From positions 5,707,053 through 5,771,052 of the forward strand of contig CM055109.1 in the NCBI GenBank assembly GCA_029204225.1: DNA of 64,000 nt, in the 5' to 3' direction. Origin of the DNA: Diphasiastrum complanatum. Its lineage: Eukaryota > Streptophyta > Lycopodiopsida > Lycopodiales > Lycopodiaceae. A program made the translations under genes and the position numbers. Of this stretch, positions 23,431 through 64,000 are shown piece by piece; position 1 is the first letter of the stretch; every line of letters starts with the position of its first letter. The notes beneath the pieces are model-generated. The model was not told the origin of the DNA and made no database searches. It saw nothing but the letters and a program-made list of their open reading frames with translations.

Positions 23431-26400
23431 TAGCAAGATTCTACACACAAGATATAGATTTGTTTGAACCTGAAACTCACAAAGGTTTCTAACTTGCAGT
23501 GTTTCACTCAAATGTTGACTTCTAATCCAACAGATGGACTTGTAATCACAGTTCTATCACTCCTTCACAAAGCTGGAATGAAGATAAGATGAAGTGAAAA
23601 CTACTCTCAAGCAAATCTTGCCAATCTTGGCTATTCCTGGATAAAAACTGACTCTATCTCTCTCATTCACTTTGATGTACTTTCAAGACCTGATTTTCAC
23701 TTTAAGAAGGTCTGAAATCATCCTAGATTAATTAGTTTAAATTCAAAACTAATCAATGACAAGTGATCTTGGTAGCTTACTATCAACATATTGTTTACGA
23801 TAGTCTTAAAAAAAAATTTACAACAAATTTATTTTTCCACACGTGGCATATCTCTAGTTAAATCACAACGCATGGCTCTACCATGCCAAGATATATGAGA
23901 TACATGCCATGTGAGAGGTAGTTAAATCACAATGCATGGCTCTACCATGCCAAGATATTTTGGCGCTCATTTTTTTGGTTTAAAAAAAAAAAATTAAGTG
24001 GCAATGCCACGTGAAAAAAAAATAATTTTGCTGTCAGACCCCACCTCCAACCTAGATTTCACCAGTAGGGTCCCCAGAAAAATTTTGGCATGGATGTGCC
24101 ACGCGTGGCAGAGCCATGCCAAAAACAATTGTTAAAATTTTAACTAAGTACCGAGTTCGCATGGTAGCGTCATGTAGCAAAATGCCATATGTGTAGTTGT
24201 GTTTGCAAATTGATAGGTTGATAGCGTTCGAGAGCAACAAACTCATTAGACCTCAAATGTGTTATACAATTCAAGAGAAAGAATCATTTGTTGTGATTCA
24301 TACACTTAGAACCTAGAAGCATTATCTTTATGGTAATTAGTTTATAGTGTATACAAATCACTACTCTCTAAAATATTTTCACAATGAACACAATGTGTGG
24401 GTCTTAGTTCATGATGGGCTAGGCTTATGCAAAATTTGATCATGAGATCTAATAAAAAAAATGGAAGTGTTTTTCAAAGTATGTTTATATGTGATTAGTT
24501 TGTTGTATGACTATTAGTGAATTGTAGACAAGCTATAAAACATACTCCTAATAAAATATTCTGCAAGTATCATTGAATTTTGCAAAAGACGTATTTAAAT
24601 GCAATTTTAAATTTTGGTCAAAAATTTGTAACTTTACGAACCCTCTTTTTTTCATCATTTTCATTTTAGGTGCTCTCCTATGCGCCCATGTTTTTGAAAA
24701 CATACAAAAATATGGTGAATTTTAATGGAATCTAGGGAATATGCCAAGTAGTTCCCCTTTGCACAAAATATTACCTATTTCATATGCAACAATGCTCTTT
24801 GCAAAAATTGTTGGGCATTATATAGTCATATTATTTGAAAAACTATTCATTGGTAAAAAGAATGCCCTCAATGTCATTAATTTTATAAATAAAAAAAAGA
24901 TCAGTACTTATTTTTAGGGCTGGATAAACTAGGGCTAACAGTTCCTTTGGGCGAACTGGGAATCTTGAAAACATTGGTTACGTGCACTGCATCTCTTCAT
25001 TTCCTTTATGAGTTTGAAAGAGATTAAAGTGTGTTAAAAATTATGGCAATATAGATCCTCTAGTGTCATAAAATAAGTGAACTTAAGCTAACAAACTAAA
25101 ATAACCTTGGATCCTCTAAGGCCCAACAATCTTCCATTTGCAATGAGGTTGAGATATTGACTTACATCATGTTGCAATAATATTTGCTCTTATACATGCA
25201 CCACCTCAATGATAGTTAGTTATTTCGCATTTTATATGACAATAATCTGTGTTCAATCAATGTGACTGATGCCTACCAATTTGTAATCAAACCTTGTAGA
25301 AAAAAGTTGTTTTAACTTTTTTCCATGAGGTTTGATATTAAAAAAATGATCTAATAATTTTTTCTAACAAAAGATGTAGGTATTTGACAATGCACCATCA
25401 CTCAAAAAAAATCTACAACTACAGATATTCTAGTAAGCCATGGCCAACTTAAACACATTTTGTTATGTGGTACCAATCTTGGCCATAGTTTGTCCATCAA
25501 GATCGATTTAGAAAAAAAAATGCATTTAATGTTATCAAAAGTAACTCATTCAGCACTTTAAGAGCTTTGAAGAAGAATGAGCTCCAATTTCTCTTCCCCT
25601 ACATTCATATCTAGAATATATAAAGAATCATAGAAAAGATACTAAAATGTGCATGCTCTTTTGTAGTTCTTTCTTTGTAGAGTGCAAAATGTTTTAATTT
25701 TTAAGTGGACGATATCAAGTATACATGAAAGTGATTGTAAAGGTTCTCACTTGATATTTCATGGTTATAAATGTGCAATAGAATAGAGGATAGATCAAAA
25801 GTTTTTATCATGAAGTCGCTATCAATGAATGATAAATAGAATACCAAAGTGTAAGAAAACTCACACCACATTTTTTATCATAACTTTGTGCACATTCAAC
25901 TCTGAAAGCATATAATCATGCTAAACTCACACCTCTCAAATGGAATCTGGCACAAGAAACGCTCTAAAATCAAGAATCTTAGCTTTTCAATAAGATCTGA
26001 ATGCTAATTTTATCTTTTTCTTTTGATAAAGCATCCCTCTTCTTGATGGATGCATCAATACCCATGAATTTTTCAATAATATTTGGAGTATCAATATTTC
26101 ATAATCTTTCTCATTTTCATTAAGAGTCACAAAGTGTATAAAGGACCTTGATCTCTTGTCATCGCCATGGCTTCAGTGATAAAACTTCCTTATTTTCAAA
26201 ATATGTAGTAGACGTCAAGGTAGCACGAAAAGTTTAGCCATTTTTTTGAATTGCGTGGTAGCAAATGATACTTCAAAGGTAATATTCTGCTGCAAAAAGG
26301 TATAACTATACCATTTCATTGACATTGAACTATCCAAGAAAGTAGAGTGCTTTCTTGAGCTAGATTTCCACATGAGTATCTTCAGCAACAAAACTCAAGT

Positions 26401-49416: not shown

Positions 49417-52400
49417 TTTATCACAATGAGATGAATTACATTCAGATCAGTCTAGCGATGAAGATAGTACTCAAGTTAACAGGGTAAGTAATAAACATGC
49501 ATGTGTTCTTGTTCATAAAAACTTTGTTATTATAAGTTAAAATATTGTGCTAAAGTGACATGTACTTGATTTTTGTTTCTCGTAAAAAAATTATTTGCAA
49601 AATAAAATATGGTGCACATGCCTCAAGTGTGATGGACAAAAGATGCGTGAAAGACGCATTGTTGAAAATCATTTGTGGAAGTTTGGACGAAAAGAAGAAG
49701 GTCAACCATCCAATTTGGAAGACGTTGAGGTTTGTTAATTTTATATGACTGTTTTTTATTATAATCTTCGTTAATCTATATATGTCACTTATGAAATTTG
49801 TTTCATGCGTGTAGCCAATACATCCAATGCCATTTCACAAAGTTGATCCATCTGTGTTTAGTTACAATCAACATCAAGTTTTGATAGACATGAGAAAACA
49901 AAGAATGAAACAAATTGAAGAGGCAAACACAATTGGAAAAGAGAATAATCAACTTGATTCTAATGATTATGATGATGAGGTGCAACACGATGAAGCAATG
50001 CACAACATGTTTGAATCTTACTTTGAAACAAATGAGAATGATGATATGCATGCATCTTCTAATGAAAACGGAGATCACGAACAATTTGAGATGGATGAAG
50101 ACGAGATTCTATTGCGCAAGGAGGCATACACTCCTTTATATCCTGGAGCATCCATTTCGAGACTAGCTACGTCAATTCTTATTCTAAACCTTCAAGCAAC
50201 ATACAAATGGAGTGATTGTAGCGTGACATCTTTATTCGGGTACTTAATGCATAACACAACTATTATACTTTATAGCATATTTACATTAAGTTAATTTTTT
50301 TTCTTTTCTAACAACTCACATTGCTCTTTTTTTAGGTTGTTGCATCGAATACTTCTGAAAGAAAATGTGATACCTAAAACACGAAAAGAAGCACGAAAAA
50401 TGATGACCGTGCTTGGAATGGATTACGACACAATACATGCATGTCCAGAAGACCATGTTCTATATAGAGTTGAGCATTCAGAAAAGCTTCAATGTCCAGT
50501 GTGTAACGCTTCATGTTTTCGAGATGACGTACAAGGGGATAAAGTGCCACGAAAAGTGTTATGACATTTTCCAATTATCCCATGATTGCAACGTTTATTT
50601 CGATGTAAATCTTTGGCACAACTAATGGATTGGCATGTCAAAAATTGATCTACGGATGATGTGATGCGAGTACCAAGTGATTCACCTGCATGGAAACATA
50701 TTGAAAACCAATGGCCCGATTTTGAAAACGAACCTCGTAATTTGAGATTTGTCCTTGCAATGGATGGCGTAAATCCTTTGAGCGTTCAAGCGTCAACTTG
50801 GTCCACATGGCCAGTTGTGCTCGTTAATTACAACATGCCTCCATGGTTGAGTATTAAAATGGGACACTTGTTATTGGCTATATTGATTCCGAAAAAGTAC
50901 AAGGCCAAGAACATGGATGTGTATCTTGCACCTTTGATCGATGAATTGTGCATTCTTTGGAATGGTATTCACACTTACGACATCTCGAGACCTTTACAAC
51001 AACAAAACTTTGTTGTTCGTGGAATTTTAATGTGGACGATGCATAACTAACCCAGTTTAAGCGAATGTTCAGGTATCTATATAATGAATCTAATCCATTT
51101 TAGGATTTAACGTTTGAGTATATTTAACTAAGATTATGTTTAATTTGGTTTACGAACTATGCAGGTTTAACCACATCGGGTTACAACGCATGTTATATTT
51201 GTGGACCACTTTTGGAGGGTTGGCATAGCACAAATATGTTAAAAAAAGTGGTGTACGAAAATTATCACAAATACTTGCTGCCTGATCATCCTTTTCGAAG
51301 GTTGAATAGGCGATTTTTTGGAGGGCGAGGAGATAATCCTCTAACTACACCACCACCCCCATGCATGGGAGTAGCGGAATGGCATGGTGAATGGCTTAAA
51401 CATCCCGACGTTAATTCTTCATGAAATGAATCCATTGATGGTATGAAACGGTTGTCTATTTTTCATAAATTACCCTATTGGAGGAATTTATTGATAAACC
51501 ATCTATTGGATCCTATGCACATATTCAAAAATGTCAGTGAATCCTTATGGAACCACATCATCGGCATAAAAGACAACTCCGCAGCTCGTAAAGATCTACA
51601 AGCGGCCGATGTGAAAAGACCCTATTGGATTCAATACACCGAAGGTGGAGATGAGATTCTACCTAGCATGTCGTGGATTCTTACAAAAGAGCAACTCTCA
51701 TATGTTAAACATGTCATAAAACAAATGAGAACTCCAACAGGCTATGCACATTCTTTATGCAAGTCATTTACCAAAGATGGTAAATTAAGTGGTTGAAATC
51801 ACATGATTGGCATAAAATGTTGCAATTCATACTTCCACTTTCTATTCGAGGTCTCTTCAATGATGATGTACAAAATATGTGATATTTTAATTTTTTTATG
51901 TGTTAAACAACCTAATGTACTATCAATCTTGCAGGTGGATTTTCTCAAAAGAAATAAAAAATAGTGAATTGGATTCCATGAAAATCCAAATGATTGAAAT
52001 GGTATGTTTGTTGGAAAGAGACTTTCCAACTTCCTTTTTGGATATACAAGTTCATCTTCTAGTGCATTTGGTCGAAGAAGTATCAACTGTGGGACCTGTG
52101 CACACGAGATGGATGTTCCACCTTGAGCGCTTTATGAAAATTTTGAAGGGCTTTGTGAGACAAAAGGCAAAGCCAGAAGGTAGCATTGCAGAAAGTTGGC
52201 TTGTATAGGAATCTTTGTTTTATATCATCGAAATAATCTCACAATTGCATCCTACAAGTCCAAAAATGTGGTGTGAAGAAGAAGATGAACGTGTTAAGGG
52301 TGAAGTACCACAAGGAAATGGTGTGCAAAAAAGACTTTCACCTCAATTAAAAGAAAAAATTGACACATTCATATTATATAATTGTGGACAAATGAAAAAG

Positions 52401-53674
52401 TGGATTTCAAGGTATGAAGAAGCCAAAAAGAAAAGAAACATAACATTGAAACGAAGAAGAAATATCAATCGAAGAAGAAGAAGGGCGTTGGAGAACGACG
52501 AACCTTTGGAGCCTTTACCTTCAAAATGCTCTCGTGAATGGGTTTTTGATACGATGCTAAAAGCATCCAAAAATGGAGAAGAAGTGACTGAATTAGAATG
52601 GGAATTCGTTTGTGGATGTGGATGGAAAGTTAGTGTAATATTGTTTATGTAAAGTTTTGTCTTTGTACTACTCAATATATGAATAGTATTTCTAAATACA
52701 CACATTTGTTTTTTTTTTTTTGTGTTTCAGTATACATCATACACTGCCATGTGGGCATATGGACACCATTACCGTGTTCAGAGAGTTGACAACAAGCGAC
52801 GTACATATGATTGTGGTATAATGGCCAACTTTCAACAAGAGAGTCGTTCTAGTGAGAGAGGCCCTAATATCATTTCAGGTGACCTAGACTATGTCAGCAC
52901 ATTGCAACATATTTATGAAGTCGATTACGAGACTAACGGCAAATACTTTATTTTTGACGTAAAATGATTTAAGGTTATCTATCATGGAAGCAACGCCATG
53001 ATTAGAAATGATAACTCAAAGTTTTTTCAAATCGACTCAACAAAGTATATCGATGGACTCTCATGACACTTTAGTATTGCCACGACATTGCGAACAAGTG
53101 AGACTCTAAAATTTTAATGTCATTAATATTTGCAATCCAATTATTTATGTATCAATCTTATAATACTAACTTGATTATTTTTAATTCTTTGGCATATTAT
53201 ATTCCATCTAGATCGAATAGACCCAAGATGGTGGTATGTGATCCAACTTAATGCAAGAAAACGACGCGTGTTTGAAGGAAAAGATATTGTTGAATTGGAT
53301 ACACACGACGAGCCACACCCAATTTTGACGACATTTTGGAAGAACTTGAACCACTCATCCAAACTCAAAATGATGTCGAAATGACGGGAGAAGAAACTAC
53401 GAATGAAAATGATGAGATTCCTACGATCGTACAAGACCAAATTGGGGGTAATTTGAGGCCCCCACGTTTGGATGAGATAGAATTAGAAGAAGAGGAGATT
53501 GAATATGAGGGTAACTCACATCATGAAAGAGACACGATTGGAAATTTACAGTTATACCTAGACCTAGATTCAAATGAGTGTCAAGACTTGTTTGATGACG
53601 AAAATGATGTAAAAATGATCTATGATTATCTATCATTCTTTTTTTTATATTCATCGCAATATTTTTTATGTTGA
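49417..53674 (+). pseudogene. CACTA H transposase gene (tnp2 type), decayed
   Basis: Exons inferred from splice sites and homology: 49417-49483, about 49604-49729, 49815-50239, 50336-51072, 51165 to about 51875, 51935-52628, 52731-53097 and 53212-53674. Exon 2 has WCTCLKCDGQK...RRIVENHLWKFG (transposase-associated domain). Exon 3 is acidic and ends AYTPLYPGASISRLATSILI. Exon 4 is the tnp2 core (YDTIHACPEDHVLYR, LAMDGVNPLS, YNMPPWLSIKMGHL, MDVYLAPLIDEL). Exon 5 has NLLINHLLDPMHIFKNVSES, exon 6 is DUF4218-like (DIQVHLLVHLVEEVSTVGPV), and exons 7-8 are DUF4216-like with an acidic tail. Stops include two CGA-to-TGA changes in exon 4 (KVL-HFP and IIP-LQRLF), a TGA at 52965-52967 and a TAG after GSIAESWLV. 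It would excise CACTA elements if intact; it is not. Confidence 0.85.
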
Positions 53675-53727
53675 TCGTAATACACACTACACGATTCCTG
53701 GGAAGGGGCATCTTTGGAAGCTCTCCT

Positions 53728-53895
53728 CTAGGATGATTCACCCGAAGAAGATAACACAAGATTTTTTATTCTATCTCTTTGTTGAGGAGATAGATTCTCA
53801 AACCACTCTTGATTATATTCTTTGGGCTCCTCACGAGCTCTTCTCCTAGATGGTCTCACACTTGACCTTCCACTTGACCCACCACCTGAAGACAT
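53728..53895 (-). CDS. small Ser/Arg-rich ORF, 55 residues, function unknown
   Basis: Minus-strand ATG at 53895. The protein starts MSSGGGSSGRSSVRPSRRRA and continues with EEPKEYNQEWFENLSPQQRD, ending at TAG 53728-53730. Composition is strongly protein-like (acidic/aromatic helix after a basic Ser/Arg N-terminus). It lies convergent to and just beyond the CACTA H transposase. It could be the first exon or a truncated remnant of a second CACTA protein. No family is recognised. Confidence 0.35.
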   Translation of the reverse strand: MSSGGGSSGRSSVRPSRRRAREEPKEYNQEWFENLSPQQRDRIKNLVLSSSGESS

Positions 53896-53969
53896 TGTAT
53901 CAAAGAAAAACTTTAAAAGTTAGAAAGTAGTGGAGAATGGGAGGGAAAGAGTAGTGAAGACTGTTAGAT

Positions 53970-54135
53970 TAGAAGAGTAAGCAATGATCGATAGTAAGCA
54001 AGAACAAGCAAGATCAATAGAGCAAGCAAGAGTAAGAGCAAGATCACTAGCAAGGAAGAGCAACCAAAATAAAGCAAGCAAGATCTATAGAGCTTGGAAG
54101 AGCAATAGCAAGCAAGAGCACTAAACACTAGATTA
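53970..54135. repeat. AGCAAG-rich degenerate repeat
   Basis: AGCAAGCAAGA, AAGATCAATAGAGC and AAGAGCA units recur about ten times with variable spacing, immediately upstream of the 55-residue minus-strand ORF. It could be leader or promoter sequence for it. Confidence 0.55.
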
Positions 54136-54179
54136 GGAAAACCTATAAAACTTGAAAGCAAAAGAAGAGGAGCAAGAAT

Positions 54180-55500
54180 GCTCGTGGAAATGTTGTTTTA
54201 TTGGCATTCAAGTTTCACGTGGATTATCCACGCGATATCCATGTTCCACGTGGTTTTTTTTTCCTCTCTTCACACATGAGAGCGTCCCCCACATGGGCTT
54301 GCATGCTTCAAATGTCATTCAATATTCTCATAATCTTTTCTAGATTTTATGAGAATATTTTATTGTAGGATTTTACATAAAATATATTTTTTAATATGAT
54401 GGAACATAAAAAAATCAATTCAAATATCATTATGGTAGTATTTAATTGTTAAAACTAGTTTTATATTGTTATAAATTTTATTTTTCTTGAGATTTGACAT
54501 ACAAGACAAAATCATGAGATAAGAGATAGTACATATTATTATTAAACAAGTAATTTGACAAGTTTTTTAACATTTTATGACATAATATTATGTCAAATCG
54601 GTGATGTCATAAAACAGTTAGTTTATTAATAATCTAGGTGTCATAGATTTGATATAATTTGATGACATAATCATATGGTCAAATAGAAAATCTTTGCTTT
54701 TGTCATGTGGCCTCTTAAATGGTTGCGTGGGGTCATTTAGATTCATGATCAAAAGCATTTATGTTATATAGAGGATCTTAGTGATATGTGACCTATATGA
54801 TATATCTTTTTAATTGTTGGTGTGTGACTTATATAACCTTACATGAAATCATAGTAATTAGTTGAAATATCATTTAGCATTGTAATAAAGATGTTGATCA
54901 ATGGTGTCCTATCTAGTATATGATTGAATGACATTGTCCAATTGCTCGTCTTTTCGATTCGAGGAACATCATCTTGCATACAAAGCAACCATAGATAGAA
55001 AGGGCGAATGCATATTGCTCGTCATGAGATACCATGGCACACTAGGCCAATCCAAGGAAATTTATCCCTAACTAACTCGAGCCAAGTATCAAATAATCAA
55101 ATGAGTGATTGAGTGGGCAATGAATCAATTGAGTATATGACTGATTGTTTGATTTTGATCATCATCACTCATCTTGGACAAGAGTTCAAACTAAAAGCTT
55201 CGAACATTGACTGCTATGTGGTCTTTAGATTAGTTGAGATAGGCCTGCGCGCACTATCTACTGATGTCTAGCATTTGTCAGTATGAACCTCATTTTGATT
55301 GCTCGTCATGTGTTGCCCCACCCAAGCAATTTTCTTGATAGCAATGTTAATAGAATATTAGATTTACATTAAGCATAAGTAGAATATGCATGAATTAGAT
55401 GTTGGCATGTCTTTAACAGATTTTATTATATTTGTTCAGTACATACGGTCTCATAATGATTACTTATGATGTGGTATAGAGTAGTTGGCTACAGTGTGTA
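54180..55500. other. no recognisable gene
   Basis: AT-rich. The only structure is at 54213-54262, where CACGTGGAT and ATCCACG arms and a second CCACGTGG form small palindromes. Somewhere here the CACTA H right end and CACTA I left end should lie, but no CACTA...TAGTG termini can be seen. Confidence 0.45.
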
Positions 55501-55924
55501 TATGTCATCGACAATGTCATCATCATCAGATAGCGATTCATCTCATGATTGCAATAGCAGGTATACATTGTTATTAATATTGACATCAATTGCACTTTAT
55601 TTGTTATTTGAATATGAGTGTATAATTTTTCTTGCAAATTTATTCTTATGATGACATTTGATTGGAATTATGAATTCTAGATAATTATCGTACCTCCACG
55701 TGATTTAGAGAAAGAAAAAAGAATTGAGCTCTATCACAGAAAAAAGGAGCAAGCAAGACTAAAGTACAATGAACAACTATTGACTGGTTCATCTTCAAGC
55801 TCTTCCATCAGTCGACGTAGACCACCTGTTGATCCATCACATGTATGTATATTGATTTATGTCATAGTTTTTTTAATTGTAATAGTGATGTACTCCGATT
55901 TGGTTGAGGATTGTGATATAATAT

Positions 55925-55983
55925 ATTGCTCTTTGGAAAGCCAAGACACCACTCCATCACAAATGAAGGTTGCAAATGCACTA
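55925..55983 (-). other. 59-bp copia RNase H fragment
   Basis: The minus strand reads A-F-A-T-F-I-C-D-G-V-V-S-W-L-S-K-E-Q, the copia RNase H segment. It matches 16824-16873 (copia F) at most positions. It has no LTR or flanking copia sequence and lies just before the transposase-associated exon of CACTA I. Confidence 0.6.
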
Positions 55984-56340
55984 AATGTACAAAGACTATT
56001 TTGTCAATTTTTGTCACATGTTACAATTTGTCAATTTTCACTTGAATGACACTGAAAGAATTTGTGCAATTTGCAATTGGATTATTGGACCAATTTCAAC
56101 TAGAATATGATGAGAGGATACCATGTACATGCACACAATGCAAAGGCCTCAGAATTCGAACAAGGAGGATTGTCAACGATCATATTTGGGCCAATGGAGT
56201 GCACACAGAGAATCCAAGAGTACGAGAGGTAAACTCTTTAAAGTGGTTTTTGGAAATGCTTTAATCTTTGACCCTTATGACACTTCAAGTATAGTTTGGC
56301 CAATGAATTTTGAGTGATAGGATGAGTGCCACGATACTTC

Positions 56341-56505
56341 GAAGTTAATCTCTCACTTGCTTCTAAAAGAAAAAATCCAAATAGAATAATTAGATGAAGT
56401 TAATCTCTCACTTGCTTCTAAAAGGCAAAATCCAAATAGAATGATTAGATGAAGTTAATCTCTCACTTGCTTCTAAAAGAAAAAATCCAAATAGAATGAT
56501 TAGAT
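56341..56505. repeat. three copies of a 55-bp tandem repeat
   Basis: Units begin GAAGTTAATCTCTCACTTGC at 56341, 56396 and 56451; a fourth begins GTAGTTAATC at 56506 and breaks off. Copies differ at one to three positions, so it is recent. It lies in the long intron-like gap of CACTA I. Confidence 0.95.
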
Positions 56506-56555
56506 GTAGTTAATCTTGATTTCCATATCCAATCACCCATAATAGACTCATTCAC

Positions 56556-56558
<3 letters not shown>

Positions 56559-56646
<88 letters not shown>
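56559..56646. repeat. (AG)44 microsatellite
   Basis: 88 bp of uninterrupted AG. Perfect purity suggests recent expansion. Confidence 0.98.
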
Positions 56647-56648
<2 letters not shown>

Positions 56649-56875
56649 AAAGGTAACCAACACTCCCAATTCTAGGAAGGTGTGTAGCCCTTGTTTTCTT
56701 CCGTTAAAGGCACAGTTCAAATGTTTTTTTTGGAAGATGAGTTCCACAAAAAAGCCCAAACGCCACAGGGAGGGAGCATGTGGTGACATTTTGGAGTAGG
56801 ATATAATCGTGTGGTTCGGGAGTTTTGATTAGCACTTTTTAATGTTCTCTCTGTTTTTCTCTTCATGTGTGTTTA

Positions 56876-57018
56876 GGGTAGGTGTGGGTGGGTGGGTGTG
56901 TGCGTGCGTGTGTTTGTGTGTGTTTGTGTGTGTGCGTGTGTGTGTTTCATGCTACTGGTTTACGGTTTGTGTTATATATTAATTTATGTTTCATGCTTGA
57001 GAGAGAGAGAGAGAGAGA
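56876..57018. repeat. GT-rich stretch and short (GA) run
   Basis: GTGTGGGTGGGTGGGTGTGT and following GCGTGTG/TTTGTG variants at 56880-56946, then (GA)9 at 56999-57017, just before the splice acceptor of the SET segment. Together they resemble a polypyrimidine-free intron end. Confidence 0.8.
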
Positions 57019-57049
57019 CTGATACATCTAACATTTTCAACTTTTGCAG

Positions 57050-58023
57050 AAGAAGGAACATAAGTTGGTTTCAAGGAAAAGAGTTGCAAGAGAGATCGAG
57101 AATATTATTGATAGGATAAATCACATGAATGTCGATTTTGGATCGTCATTGGCCTTAGATAATGCTCTTGTTGATGATGACCCCTTGCATGATATAATTA
57201 GTTCATCAATGCCTTGTGATTCAATCCATGTCTCCAAATCTCTAGAACGTTCTTATCAGGACTCACGTGGATTCCACAAATTTGACCACCCCTTTAAAAA
57301 AGAGAACACGTCTTGGACGTATTATGACTAGTTTGAAAGATAATTGCAAATTACTACGCACTGTTGATGTGTCAAAAGACATTCTAGGTTCTTTGTCTGA
57401 CCTTCCTCTTCCACCTAGCTTGCAACCATTAGTAAAAACTTTCATTAGAAGTAGATATTTGTGTTGGCCACTCCAATCACCATTACCATTAAATGGAACA
57501 CCATTTACGTATTGGGGTCGAATGTACATGATCATGCCTAGTGAACACTTTCCTGAGACTGGTTTGGGACTTTTTGCATTGAGTAGTATTAAGGTCCCTC
57601 TAAATAGTGTTGTGACATTGATGCCATATGCAGGACCTCAATACAATTGGGGTGATTGGCATGCTTTGTGTTGTCACCAATGGAGGATGCAAGTATATGG
57701 CCTGAATTTAAATGCTTGTTCTTTAGAGGAGCAACGCAGGCAACATCTCAAGGGCAAATCGTGCATACATTGATGGACATCCAGATGTGAATGGAAACAT
57801 TGCTACATATATAAATAGTTCCATTGGCCACCCTCTATTGATGAATTGTGATTTTTAAGAACGCACCAATGGAAAAGAAGAATATTTTACTAGGAATGTA
57901 AAGGGCACTTATGTAATGGACTGTGCCACTAGATCTATTAGGTTTGGGGAGGAATTGTTCATCAAGTATAGTTTCAACCGTCCTCTACCCAAATGTTTGC
58001 AAAAGACAATAAGTCAAATGTGA
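57050..58023 (+). pseudogene. SET-domain (protein lysine methyltransferase-like) segment inside CACTA I
   Basis: It begins at a strong acceptor (TTTTCAACTTTTGCAG|AAGAAGG). Frame 1 is KKEHKLVSRKRVAREIENII onward; it shifts near 57260 to a frame with PLPPSLQPLVKTFIRSRYLC. The SET core then reads PETGLGLFALSSIKVPLNSV (canonical G-x-G-x-F-A-x3-I), with MPYAGP for the Y-x-G step. A second shift near 57745 leads to GNIATYINSSIGHP...NCDF (canonical N-x-R-F-I-N-H-S-C-x-P-N-C). TAA follows at 57856-57858, then VMDCATRSIRFGEELFIKYS (canonical A-x-R-x-I-x2-G-E-E-L-x-x-x-Y) and a terminal TGA at 58021. SET proteins methylate lysines using S-adenosylmethionine. Three lesions make it a pseudogene. It sits where the sister CACTA H gene has only an 85-bp intron, so it is extra to the transposon. 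It is recognised by motif only; the SET class is unknown. Confidence 0.65.
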
Positions 58024-58394
58024 AGATTTAAATTTTGTTGATATGCAGAGATGTATAATCCATGCATCTTGATTGTATTTGGTTTGTGTCATTAAATATG
58101 TCAAATGTTAGGAGCATAATTTATCATTTGTCTGGATGTTTACAGAAGATAATAAGTGAAAGATAATGAATGTGAAATTCATAAATATGTAAATATGTAG
58201 CACCGTGCAATCATTTGAGTTCATTGAATGTTAACAAGTTGAAAAGAAAAATGGTCTAATAGATACATTGGTATGTTCATACTTTTTAAACAAAGAGGTA
58301 ATTTATATTCATATGCAACATTTAGATCTATCAAGTATTGGGAGAAAATGTTTATGAAGCATTGTTTCAACCTACTTCTTGTTATTTTGGTATA
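58024..58394. other. remainder of the expanded CACTA I intron
   Basis: AT-rich, no coding sequence, between the SET segment and the next transposase exon (acceptor TTTGGTATATAG at about 58394). Confidence 0.45.
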
Positions 58395-60835
58395 TAGAAT
58401 TCTTCATCCTCATTTAGCATTGGAGACAATAATTCTCGTAATGGTTGACGTAGACGACGAATGCAATATAACGGTCCTCATATAAAGCAATTACCTTGTC
58501 GTCTACATCTAGGCTTAAAAGAGATGATGGAAATTGATGAGCACATTAATCAAGAGACTAATGCATCTGAATCTAGCTCATCTAGATCTACTTCTTTGCA
58601 AACAAGTTCCAACAATGAAAATGAGCCTCCAATGAATGATGAATTTTAAGTCATGGGAGACATGTTGGATGATATGCACGAGGACAATAGTGCAACTAGA
58701 CACAATGAACAAGATGAGGAGGCACTTTTGTCTAAAGAAGAAAAGAAATTGCGAGAAGAATCAAAGACCGCATTGTACCCTGGAGCAAAGACATCTAGTT
58801 TGGCGACTTCTCTGCTTCTATTAAATCTTCAAGCCAAATATAGATGGAGTGACCAAAGCCTCACATCATTATTTGAGTAAATTGTTTTTCATCTACTTGT
58901 CATTTTTGCTTTGAAACCAAATTTACAATTTGGACATCTAGTGATAATTTTTTTACAATGACTTCTTTTGTCATGTACAGACTATTGAAAAACAAAATTC
59001 TCCCAGAAGGGAATGTCATGCCTGAGACAAGAGATGAGGCACGAAAGATGTTGTCTAACATCGAGATGGACTACAAGCAATATCATGCATGTCCAAAAAA
59101 TTGTATTTTATATCAAGGAAGGTACGAATCACTCAAGAAATGTCCCATTTGTGATACTCCTCGATATAGAGATGATTTGCAAGGGGCAGCCATTCCGTGC
59201 AAAGTTTTACGACATTTTCCAGTAATTCCACGATTGCAACGTTTATTTCGTTGTAAATCTCTTGCACAACTTATGGACTGGTATGCACACCATAACTCTA
59301 CGGATGGGATGATGAGGGTACCTTCAGATTCACTGCATGGAAACACATCAACAAAGAGTATCCAAGCTTTACCAATGAGTCAAGAAATGTGAAATTTGGT
59401 CTTGCAACAGATGGTGTGAACCTCTTTGGTGTACGAGCAACTATGTGGTCCATTTGGCCTGTTTGCTTGGTATCTTATAATATTCCTCCTTGGTTGAGTA
59501 CAAAAAAGGGACACATTACGTTGGCACTTCTAATTCCTGGCCAACACAAGGTAAGAACATGGATGTGTATCTTGAGCCGCTTATTGACGAGTTGGAAGAT
59601 TTGTGGAAGGGGATAAAAGCATATGACATTTCGCACCCCTTACATGAGAGGGAGTTTAACCTACATGCCATTGTAATGTGGACAATGCATGACTATCCAG
59701 GATTAGGTCAATGCTCAAGTAATCATGCAAACAATGTCTATCTTGTGTACATAGGAGTTTGTTTATAGTTACATACAACTAGTAATTCCTGACATTTACA
59801 TGATATACTACAATGGCTATAATTATTCTGACATATACTTATTTTAATAGTGATTGATAGTATCCACTTGTTGGGCAGGCTTTCAAACGGCTGGAAAAAA
59901 TGTTTTTTTTTTGTGCGGGCCAAATCTTGTGGGAAGATACTCTTATAGTCTCAAAAAAGTGGTTTATAAAAATCATCGTAAATACTTGCATGAAGGCCAT
60001 CCATTCAAAGACGCTCATAGAAGAGGTTTTGGAGGAAGAGTTGAGAGAGATATGCCTCCAAAGAGGATGTCTGTGGAAGATTGGTGAAAACTATGGGAGG
60101 AATCTCAAGCAAAGCCAATCGATGGTATGAAAAAATTATCTATATTTCATCATTTGGAATATTGGAATAATTTTTTGATTAATCACCTACTTGATCCCAT
60201 GCGCATATTCTAAAAATGTGGGTGAATCTATTTGGAAACACTTGATTGGTGAAAAAGATATCATTGCTGCAAGGCACGATCTAAAAGAATCAAACACCAA
60301 AAAAGAATATTGGATAAAGGATGGTGAAGATCATGCTCCAAAAGTACTTGGACATTCACTAAGGAGGAGCTTAACCATGTGCGCTCCATTATTCATGACA
60401 TTAGAACACTGACTAGTTTTGCCCATTCTCTACGGTCATCATTCACAGTGGATGGAAAGTTGCAAGGTCTCAAATCTCATGATTGGCTAAAGATGATTCA
60501 ATTCATCTATCCATTTTCAATTCGTGGGTGCTTGTCAAAAGATATTTGTGAGACCATATACAAACTATCAATCATTATCAAGTATTTACATGTACTTGGT
60601 GTATTTTTTTATTTAGTATTTATTGATTGGAAATTCAAATAGACATAAAATGGATTGAATATGTTGCAGATGGATGTGTTCAAAAGAAATCCGTGAGCTG
60701 GATCTTCGCAAGAGACATGAGGATATGGTGGAGATTGTGTGCATGTTTGAGAGATATTTTCTAACTTCCATCATGGACTCACAAGTGCATTTATTGGTGC
60801 ACTTGGTTGAAGAAGTTTCTATTGTTGGTCCACTG

Positions 60836-61535
60836 TGTGAAAGTACTGTACTTTAGGACCATAAATGGATCTACAAAGATCCACAAGAGTGATTGGATGC
60901 TTGCTTAACAATCTATCAAAAAACTAGACACAAAAAAGTTGATCTAGATTGGCAATTTGACAAACAACAAGCATTAACAATCAAAAGCATTGATAAACAT
61001 TGAAATCTGAGCCCACACATGTGTACTACAGGCTGTAGTACGGCCTTCAACCTGAGAAACAAGTAGAAACTGATTTGGTTTCATTTGGATCACAAAAACT
61101 CAATGTACATAGTGAACTAGCTTGAGATTGCCAATGAGCTCCAAAAATTTTCTATCTTCTCACTATGGAGAGAGGGAATACATAGCAAATTCGACTTCCT
61201 TCTTGAAGTTAGGTGGATTTCCAGCATGTAATAAGGAAGTTAACTCACTCTCCTTGACCTAAAATGAAACCCTAGTCTATTTCCTAGAGTTATGCTTGGT
61301 AGGTAGCTAGTTGGTCAAATTTTCACCTTAAACTTAGGTGTAGGTCCTATAAAGTAGGGATGACCACCAAATAGACATGACCAACTCTCTTGACTTGACC
61401 TAACCTACATTAGGATGGGTTTCCCATGTGGCATCATGGCCTCACATGTGTGGGACCCACTTGTGTACACAATTTACACTATTCTACATGGTTTTTGATC
61501 AAGCTAGATCTGCCAATTTTTGGCAATTCTCCACA
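60836..61535 (-). repeat. 700-bp solo copia LTR inserted in CACTA I
   Basis: TGTGAAAGTACTG...CAATTCTCCACA, flanked by CACTG (60831-60835) and CAGTG (61536-61540), one mismatch in five. Removing it and one flank restores V-G-P-L-H-T-R with a donor (CACTAG|GTATAAG) that splices to W-M-F at 61654, as in gene H. No internal copia sequence is present, so it is a solo LTR. By analogy with copia A, the TGTGAAA end on the left suggests minus orientation, though this is weak. It holds ACACATGTGT (about 61014) and CACATGTGTG (about 61443). Confidence 0.8.
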
Positions 61536-63189
61536 CAGTGCACACTAGGTATAAGTGCATAAATTTTCTTTTGCATGTGTATTTAAACTAAATCGATTGA
61601 TACATGGACTCATTAAATAAAACAATTTTTTTTAACCATTTGTGACTTTTTAGGTGGATGTTCTTTATGAAAAGATACATGAAAGTCTTAAAAGATTTTG
61701 TGCATCAAAAGGCAAGGCTTGAAGGTAGCATGTCAGAGGAATGTTTAGTACATGAATCTCTCTTTTATGTTACTGAAATCCTGCACCAACTACATCCATC
61801 TGCTCCACTATTGTGGCGTGATGAGGAAGCTGAAGAGGTAACTAGTGAAAAACCTCAAGGGATGGGAAAGGTCCATAAGTTGGCACCCTTCCAACGAGGA
61901 AAAATTTCTACATTCGTGTTTTATAATTGTGGAGTTATGAATAAATGGTTAGACCTATATGAAGAAGAGAAAAAAGAGAGGGCCTTGTCTAGAAAGCGCC
62001 AACAATATAATAGAGGTAGACACATGGCCTCAAGTTCACATGATCTTGAGCCATTGCCCAAGGAATGCACTAGAGAGTGGATGCATGACACACTACAAAA
62101 AGCAACAAAAGAGGGACAAAAAATATCAAACGCAAAATGTGACTTTACAAGAGGATGCGAATGGAAGGTATTATTCTTTAGATACTTTATTATTAGAACA
62201 TTCTTGTTTATAACAATATTTGTTTAATCATTTTGAAACACTGTGTTCATTCACAGTGATTATTTATGAGATTTATGTTTGTCATGTGGCAGTGCAAAAT
62301 GTATAATGCTATATGGGCTCTTGGTTTCCACTATTGTGTTGAAAGGATTGATAACAAGAGATGCACACACGATTGTGGTGTAATAGCATCTTTCCAATAA
62401 GAAAGTCAAAGCAGTGCACGAGATCGAAATCCCATCTCAGGAGACATAGAATACGTAGGAACTATACAAAATATTTATGATGTGTCATTTGGTGAAAGTG
62501 GACACTATTTTTTATTTGATGTGAAATGATTCAAGGTAATGTGTAGAGGGCCAAATGCAACCGTAAAATCGGATCCAAGTGGAGATTTTGCGATTGATTC
62601 ATCAAAAACATTGAGCATGGAGTCCTTTGACACATTGGTGTTGCCTCGTCACTGTGAGCAGGTGCACATGCTATGCTATCATGTTTTTCATTTTATTGCA
62701 AGTGACTTCAGTATTTGAGTTTTCAATATGCTCTAAAATAATGATTTTTGCAGGTTTTTCTTCAATTAGATCGACTAAACAAGATGTGGTGGTTTGTAGC
62801 TCAAGTTGAACCACATTCACGACGAGTATTTGAGGGCGCAAATGTTGAGAATGAAATGGAAAACCTTCATTTTAACTATGAGATTGAGCTACCTAGAGAT
62901 GTAGTAAATCGTCAAACCATACTTGAAGCACCCACTTCCATAGATGTTAAGAATAGAAATTCTAATAGTCAGGATGATGAAATAATTTTTGAAAGTGAGA
63001 GTGATGATGAAAATCATCTAAGAGGGGATGAATTGCAAGATGTTGTTGCTAATGAAATTGATTCTTGCAATGCTTTCAAATGATTGTTATTTAGCCAAAA
63101 TAGAATCTCATTTATGGTCAAGTAAGTGAAAAGAATAGACATAGTTTGACTTCAATCCCATTTTTTTGGAGATAATGTCGGTGAAGATA

Positions 63190-63650
63190 GATGTACGGCT
63201 TCATGTTCCAAGAAAATTCTCATTTTTTAACAAATGTTGCAAAGGCAGTAAATCACTAAAAGCATGTGAATTAATGAAATCACCACCACAAACTATGACA
63301 AAACCAAATGTTTCATCATAGTCAATCCCCTTGAATTGAGCATATTCTTGGCAACTAGTCTTGTTTTATAATTGTTCACACTACCATCTTGATTAAGCTT
63401 GATTTAAAGACCCATTTGAAAACAGTAAAATTTTGTATCTTTGATGGAGGATCAATAATTTTACAAGTATTTCAAACAATGCATCATACACTCACTTTTC
63501 ATTGCATCAAATCACTCTTTTGTTGCTACAGTTTCATTCACACTTGAAGGAACATCATCAAACTTAAGGTAGTAATAAGGGCAATAAAAACTAATCAACT
63601 TGTAATTGCTTCTCTCTTCCTTGTATTTGAGCCTTGATGGTTGCATTTGG
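63190..63650 (-). pseudogene. copia J reverse transcriptase entry, decayed
   Basis: The minus strand reads NETVATKE-FDAMKSE, then IKLNQDGSVNNYKTRLVAK and a GIDYDETF-like patch. This is the start of copia reverse transcriptase, with stops (TGA for Trp after ATKE) and a lost frame. It lies directly next to the primer site, so gag, protease and integrase have been deleted. Confidence 0.6.
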
Positions 63651-63662
63651 GCTTTGATACCA
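63651..63662 (-). other. copia J primer binding site
   Basis: Minus-strand TGGTATCAAAGC, one base from the tRNA-Met type site, directly abutting an LTR at 63663. Confidence 0.7.
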
Positions 63663-64000
63663 TGTTAAAATCAGAGATTATGAATCTCATTTGGATACTA
63701 AAACATTGAAAAATCATCAAAGGTTTCACTTATATCTAATAGATAGAAAACTAGCACATAATTCAACCTATTTTGCATCTAATTGGCAAGAGCTTTTGAA
63801 CACCACAATAAAACTAGAAATAATTGATCTTCACATCTTGTCACACACGTGGAAAGTATAATACTTTGTTCAGATTCAGATCTATTCAGACACAAAAAAT
63901 ATCACATTCATCATTCATCAATTTCTCATTAAAGAACAAAATCACCATTTCTTGATAATCTCTCAAAGTATGTACAAAATGATCTCTCAATCCATATTAA
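63663..64000 (-). repeat. 5' LTR of copia J, cut by the window end
   Basis: Starts TGTTAAAATCAGAG next to the primer site and runs out of the window. It contains ACACACGTGG near 63846, the same kind of site seen in the other copia LTRs. Confidence 0.65.

Follow-up and report, generated by a model that had tools for sequence, protein, structure and literature searches.

A recurrent SET-domain gene in a group of CACTA transposons of Diphasiastrum complanatum, with a candidate role in chromatin

The window analysed in this study is a 64,000-nucleotide stretch of the Diphasiastrum complanatum genome (assembly GCA_029204225.1, contig CM055109.1, positions 5,707,053 to 5,771,052, forward strand). 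It contains, on the plus strand, the CACTA/EnSpm DNA transposons H (the sister element, 49604..53288) and I (53673..63600). Element I carries a SET-domain coding exon (57050..58023) between its transposase-associated (TA) exon and its tnp2 transposase exons. A preliminary description of the window had suggested that this segment was either a host gene fragment captured by one element or a protein that once helped the transposon. Comparison with related copies in the genome makes us highly confident that the SET is an element-borne gene of a CACTA group, kept by selection.

The SET exon opens at 57050, behind a good splice acceptor (cttttgcag, ending at 57049), reads in phase 0 and closes with its own stop codon, TGA, at 58021-58023. 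The three SET blocks are legible in order, as previously described: GLGLFA in the frame 57246-57770, NIATYINSS...NCDF in the frame 57727-57855, and ATRSIRFGEELFIKY in the frame 57859-58020. A PYAG motif is also readable in the exon. The stretch 57261..57743 holds the upstream region together with the leading SET motifs (GLGLFA, YAG). The C-terminal motifs (YIDG..GN(I)A.YINSS..NCDF and GEELFIKYSF) occupy 57767..58004 and are recognised from a weak Pfam match on their last part and from hhalign of intact copies. When the three window frames were scanned against Pfam, no significant PF00856 (SET) match was obtained. The frame 57859-58020 gave the best score (13.0 bits, E=0.14, below significance), the frame 57246-57770 matched no family, and the frame 57727-57855 gave no SET match. 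The motif recognition of the preliminary description therefore fell short of a formal test on the window pieces. Three lesions, the number it had given, were confirmed: compared with two intact copies, 44 bp are absent from the window SET near 57258-57262 and a further 8 bp near 57735, and an in-frame TAA stands at 57856. The window copy is dead.

The coding around the SET exon is that of a CACTA element. The TA exon (56046..56228, phase-0 donor) matched PF13963 with E=5e-6 and 27.0 bits, just below the cut-off of 27.7. Downstream of the SET exon, the transposase-branch exon (58398..58877, acceptor atatag|AAT, phase 0) leads to tnp2; it was read from the sequence, is interrupted by stops in the window copy and is open in relatives. 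The tnp2 (Transposase_21) coding at 59296..59765 is split into overlapping frames (PF02992, E=1e-24 and 5.7e-17). DUF4218 coding (60659..62224) lies in two pieces, 60659-60853 and 61646-62224 (PF13960, E=7.8e-10 and 1.7e-7). Sister H has TA, tnp2 (PF02992, E=9.7e-42) and DUF4218 coding and no SET; PF13960 was over its cut-off in both elements. Elements I and H have the CACTA/EnSpm domains tnp2, TA and DUF4218, with the PF13963 score of I slightly under the cut-off. At the place of the SET exon of element I, sister H has a phase-0 intron of 85 bp (49730-49814, read by eye). This agrees with the short interval previously noted in H, and the phase position matches.

The whole genome (1.74 Gb, 5176 contigs) was searched for relatives. 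With PF00856, 146 matches were obtained from the best 150 of 875 candidates. They were spread over many contigs, and by eye most of them spanned only about profile positions 45-105. Regions around 27 of these matches were fetched; locus L014 is the same place as L020, so that 26 distinct loci remained. In the following, type A denotes the window type and type B the loci fetched through PF00856. In tblastn, 25 of the 26 distinct loci gave a match to the first half of the SET of element I, and the remaining one, L026, matched a later piece. The protein of the window frame 57246-57770, used as a query, found 2210 candidates in the genome, of which the best 150 were scored. Among these, 148 were 88-95% identical to the window, and the other two were the window itself and the near-identical contig C507. 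The matched stretch was free of stops in 104 of the 150 scored copies. Intact copies of types A and B shared about 64-71% protein identity, and all seven open frames tested, from both types, scored 26.4-36.4 bits with PF00856 (cut-off 22.4). Because these intact relatives exceed the cut-off, the sequence comparison confirms that the segment 57050-58023 is a genuine SET homologue. A chance resemblance of motifs is ruled out by the same scores. An NCBIfam scan of three SET copies matched no family. The B-type SET frames in L009, L010 and L012 have a linker of tandem HIDSIHPTTP-like repeats before the SET region, which is not present in A frames.

The linkage of the SET to CACTA coding was determined in 27 distinct loci (26 of type B and L036 of type A), all of which had been found through their SET. 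CACTA coding lay beside the SET, in the order and strand of the window, in 24 of the 27 loci. TA lay upstream of the SET in 10 loci, 20 had tnp2, DUF4218 or later exons on its downstream side, and 6 had both. With a B-type TA query, the TA exon was detected in L036 and in 13 of the 26 loci of type B. When the best 150 SET candidates were compared with the best 150 of 4123 tnp2 candidates, at least 32 pairs lay within 5 kb of each other, against an expectation of 0.03 under random scatter. In every pair the two matches shared a strand, with tnp2 0.87-2.7 kb downstream of the SET, and other arrangements numbered zero. Some unplaced contigs duplicate chromosomal places (C507 and the window, for example), and the pairs are therefore not all independent.

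Some of these data speak against a fixed association. Three of the 27 loci (L013, L017 and L021) had no CACTA coding detected nearby. In L036, the only long A-type locus that was read, TA and an open SET frame are present, and tnp2 was not found within its 10 kb. Because possession of a SET was the basis for choosing the loci, the value of 24/27 says nothing about how frequent a SET is among CACTA copies. Judged by these comparisons, the SET is a gene that recurs in a large CACTA group, in which two diverged subfamilies, A and B, are distinguished. The search for further CACTA copies with the SET exon was thus successful, and the idea of a fragment captured by a single element was not borne out. 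Nor was the segment found standing alone at many sites, since CACTA sequence went undetected at only the three loci named above, of the 27 read. The recurrence of the SET in two diverged subfamilies means that any capture must be old.

Selection on the SET was estimated as dN/dS from codon alignments of open frames. The A-B set consisted only of copies with long open frames; L014, as the duplicate of L020, and L016, whose frame lacked the anchor used, were dropped. Between two A copies and ten B copies, dN was 0.196 and dS 1.356, with a ratio of 0.145 (0.12-0.18, 20 pairs). The window tnp2 compared with B gave the same ratio of 0.145 (11 matches). Window SET pieces compared with stop-free B copies gave 0.20 (16 matches) and 0.105 (25 matches). 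In 4722 codon comparisons of the SET, differences at codon positions 1, 2 and 3 numbered 1076, 763 and 1952. These data indicate that purifying selection on the SET equals that on the tnp2 transposase. Within B, the mean ratio was 0.72 (0.15-1.86, 45 pairs), and the single A pair gave 0.76. The low ratio between A and B, together with about 0.7 within the subfamilies, indicates that the SET was kept on active lineages and that many copies then decayed. The comparison supports the earlier guess of a protein formerly of use to the transposon.

Several values count against so simple a picture. The dS between A and B is near saturation, so the absolute ratio is approximate. The first 75 residues of the SET are less constrained (pN/pS 0.50), and other parts of the element gave higher ratios: 0.49 for the DE part (6 matches, 0.09-1.58) and 0.50 for the C-terminal exon (9 matches, 0.36-0.99).

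Passive capture of a host gene in the style of Pack-CACTA, with a cargo that was amplified and useless to the element, is highly improbable. Passages of PMC8978399 and PMC13317346 describe CACTA elements that take up host fragments, and numerous copies, that in the window among them, are broken, which would fit such a cargo. But the constraint between subfamilies is that of tnp2, and both subfamilies have preserved the order of the coding parts and the phase-0 splice sites. Recurrent linkage and selection together rule out a one-off capture. A host parent gene, which the preliminary description had proposed to look for, was not recovered: the seven host SET loci that were read matched the transposon SET profile with E=0.26 or worse, so that none of these seven is a close parent. 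We take these seven loci to be SUVH-like, with one E(z)-like.

The splice sites around the SET exon are similar in the two types. In type A, the TA exon ends with GAG|GTAAAC (56228/56229) and the SET exon follows from 57050, both in phase 0. In type B, the TA donor is GAG|GTACAT and the SET acceptor CTCTTG(C/T)AG|AATAAT, again in phase 0, with an intron of about 100 bp. In the readable B loci, the donor GT was kept in 13 of 13 and the acceptor AG in 12 of 14, the exceptions being L023 and L018. The transposase-branch exon begins in phase 0 in both types, at 58398 in the window and at ttgaag|GAC in B, the latter read in L015. Its counterpart is open at 4524-5003 of L036 (type A), and its B homologue is open at 4050-4559 of L026. 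A splice from TA to tnp2 that skips the SET is in phase 0, as in sister H.

We believe, with some reserve, that this gene is probably alternatively spliced into two products. Splicing of the TA exon to the SET exon would give a TA-SET protein, and splicing past the SET to the tnp2 exons would give a TA-TNP2 transposase; the SET exon would then be an alternative terminal exon. The weak side of this model is that the alternative splicing is read from genomic sequence, and that B copies have Met codons of their own at the very start of the SET exon. These Met codons would also suit an independent gene nested in the intron, which would have a promoter and start codon of its own and would not be spliced to the TA exon; we consider this unlikely. 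Also in its favour, the SET exon closes with its own stop in both types, and the long GA repeats in the A intron are potentially promoter-like. A nested gene, however, does not account for an AG acceptor and matching phase in both A and B. Moreover, protein similarity between A and B begins only at residue 14-16 of the SET exon, with coding similarity starting 39-45 bases past the acceptor, and the A Met codons in this stretch align with no B Met. The lack of B counterparts for the A Met codons favours translation from the upstream exon over a start inside the SET exon.

A GT overlaps the SET stop codon in both subfamilies (aatGTGAAG in the window, cttGTGAAT in L027 of type B). If this GT were used as a donor, the SET exon would be internal and the transposase would be a TA-SET-TNP2 fusion. 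That donor leaves phase 2, but the next acceptor is in phase 0 in both subfamilies, so that the frame would be lost (read by eye). The mismatch of splice phases makes the fusion very unlikely.

The predicted SET protein has both conserved and divergent features. The motifs GLGL, YxG and GEELFIKY are largely kept, except that L009 and L025 read YAR and L025 reads ELGL. Across 10 aligned copies, no variation was seen at the Tyr of GEELFIKY, the Tyr of YxG or the Asn of NSS. An hhalign comparison placed YINSS and GEELFIKY of the element over RFINHSC and ELTYDY of host SET proteins. We infer that the TA-SET protein may have methyltransferase activity. Its TA part, which the transposase would also have, would direct the SET protein to the DNA of the element. 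There it would methylate histones or another protein, countering silencing or aiding transposition. By analogy with other functions for epigenetic marks that are carried by transposons, we hypothesise that an anti-silencing role would be its likeliest use.

Taken together, these steps would describe a CACTA lineage with its own chromatin writer, which we put forward tentatively, as a possibility that is less than probable. One gene would produce two proteins with a common targeting domain, a transposase and a TA-SET methyltransferase. The methyltransferase would place a permissive mark on the copies of its own element and allow them to escape silencing, and selection would have maintained this arrangement while the group split into two or more subfamilies and was amplified on a large scale.

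Several results argue against this proposal. The NHS motif reads NSS in the 10 aligned copies, so that the putative activity is uncertain. The hhalign match to host SET proteins was weak (15% probability, E=0.0017), no convincing match of the SET profile to a solved structure was obtained, and cysteine-rich, zinc-binding pre-SET and post-SET regions were not recognised in the element SET. The link of the protein to chromatin rests on analogy. As far as is known, PR/SET proteins also lack the NHS motif, and some of them are active. The replacement of NHS by NSS and the unrecognised zinc-binding regions would equally suit a SET-fold protein that binds DNA or protein without enzymatic activity, for example as a regulator. 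The Tyr and Asn residues that are invariant in 10 of 10 copies stand against such a binder, and we regard it as rather doubtful.

The limits of the elements were also inspected. Of 40 matches to window 53500-53900, 38 begin at 53673-53674, and the other two are the window and C507. The alignment of L036 to element I also begins at 53673. This sharp left boundary could be the end of the element or a breakpoint of this copy. On the right side, most of the 43 matches are still similar at 63598, and element I therefore probably runs on toward or beyond the window edge. Inverted matches between 53501-54300 and 62801-64000 were merely 9-14 bases long, and a motif search for type-A termini gave none. 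In type B, the 3' terminus TGTAGTTGTG was present at 14 of the 25 distinct B loci scanned (16-base pattern, at most 2 mismatches), and the matching 5' terminus CACAACTACA was found in one locus (L024:1128). The B termini read CAC...GTG, not CACTA at the very tip. The window itself contains, at 24024-24201, a decayed 3' end of a B-type element, which matches L018 at 81% and ends with CATATGTGTAGTTGTG.

Other features of element I and its relatives are as follows. The C-terminal coding exon (62745..63080) matched no family in a Pfam scan and had tblastn matches in B loci too. An insertion-like stretch at 60860-61640 divides the DUF4218 coding. The long GA repeats (56559-56646 and 57000-57018) lie in the intron before the SET exon; L036 has them as well, and none were seen in the short intron of type B. 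A short minus-strand frame with MSSGGGSSGRSS lies at 53728-53919, in the left end of the A-type element, and this frame is also open in L036 near 545-718. A tnp2 tree united H and I on long branches, and DUF4218 placed I nearer to B. Over the stretches that were searched, the unplaced contig C507 (49826-59893) shows 99-100% identity with the locus in the window, and it is perhaps a duplicate or other haplotype of this locus in the assembly. L016 holds two SET copies, and in L032 (8091-9957) part of an A-type element lies inverted beside a B-type element; elements of this group thus adjoin or nest in one another.

The tnpA and tnpD proteins of Spm/En arise by alternative splicing, and to our knowledge neither has a SET domain. 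Spm/En resembles the element described here as a CACTA element with a second protein besides the transposase (tnpA and tnpD; text available from PMC4158355). The same text deals with how exons and introns are arranged in CACTA transposases and mentions that alternative splicing may occur. The CACTA/EnSpm elements of plants described in part of PMC8978399 have the same domain order, TA-tnp2-DUF4218. According to that text, the CACTA superfamily gains extra domains (Peptidase_C48, Transposase_24, Orbi_VP1, SANT and ribosomal_S8e_like). SET is not named among them there, and a search of the paper for SET as a whole word gave no match, whereas the element here has one. In the available text of a gene-capture review of 2026 (PMC13317346), the words SET and methyltransferase had no match. 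Literature searches found no SET-bearing CACTA; most subscription papers and Repbase Reports were outside their coverage, and this is not proof of novelty.

We know of no SET in the silencing-regulating protein of VANDAL. VANDAL elements of plants code for a protein by which the silencing of these same elements is regulated (passages of PMC12730594), and they are thus like the element here in that a plant DNA transposon would control its own silencing, as proposed above; VANDAL is of the MuDR type. The same passages, citing Repbase Reports 2014, state that HarbingerS and MuDR elements of Phytophthora carry SET genes. These are likewise DNA transposons with a SET histone methyltransferase gene, the enzyme here being predicted. 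As described there, they belong to other transposase superfamilies and live in an oomycete host, and the tnp2 transposase places the present element outside HarbingerS. SETMAR/Metnase also joins a SET with transposase sequence (partial text of PMC4363357). SETMAR combines a mariner transposase with a single host SET gene, whereas here the transposase is tnp2, the copies are many and the SET lies inside the element. Fungal transposons, EnSpm included, carry TET/JBP (PMC12730594, in part), which is also an element-borne enzyme of epigenetic marks; theirs is a dioxygenase and occurs in fungi.

According to the same partial source (PMC12730594), transposons with their own epigenetic-mark enzymes are already known in fungi and oomycetes. 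In D. complanatum, most of the 146 PF00856 matches, judged by eye, share the partial profile range of the element type, and all 26 distinct fetched loci carried the element SET. SET gene counts in genome annotations may therefore be inflated by transposon copies. With a selected SET in a large CACTA group, one could also test directly if a DNA transposon of plants places histone marks on its own sequence.
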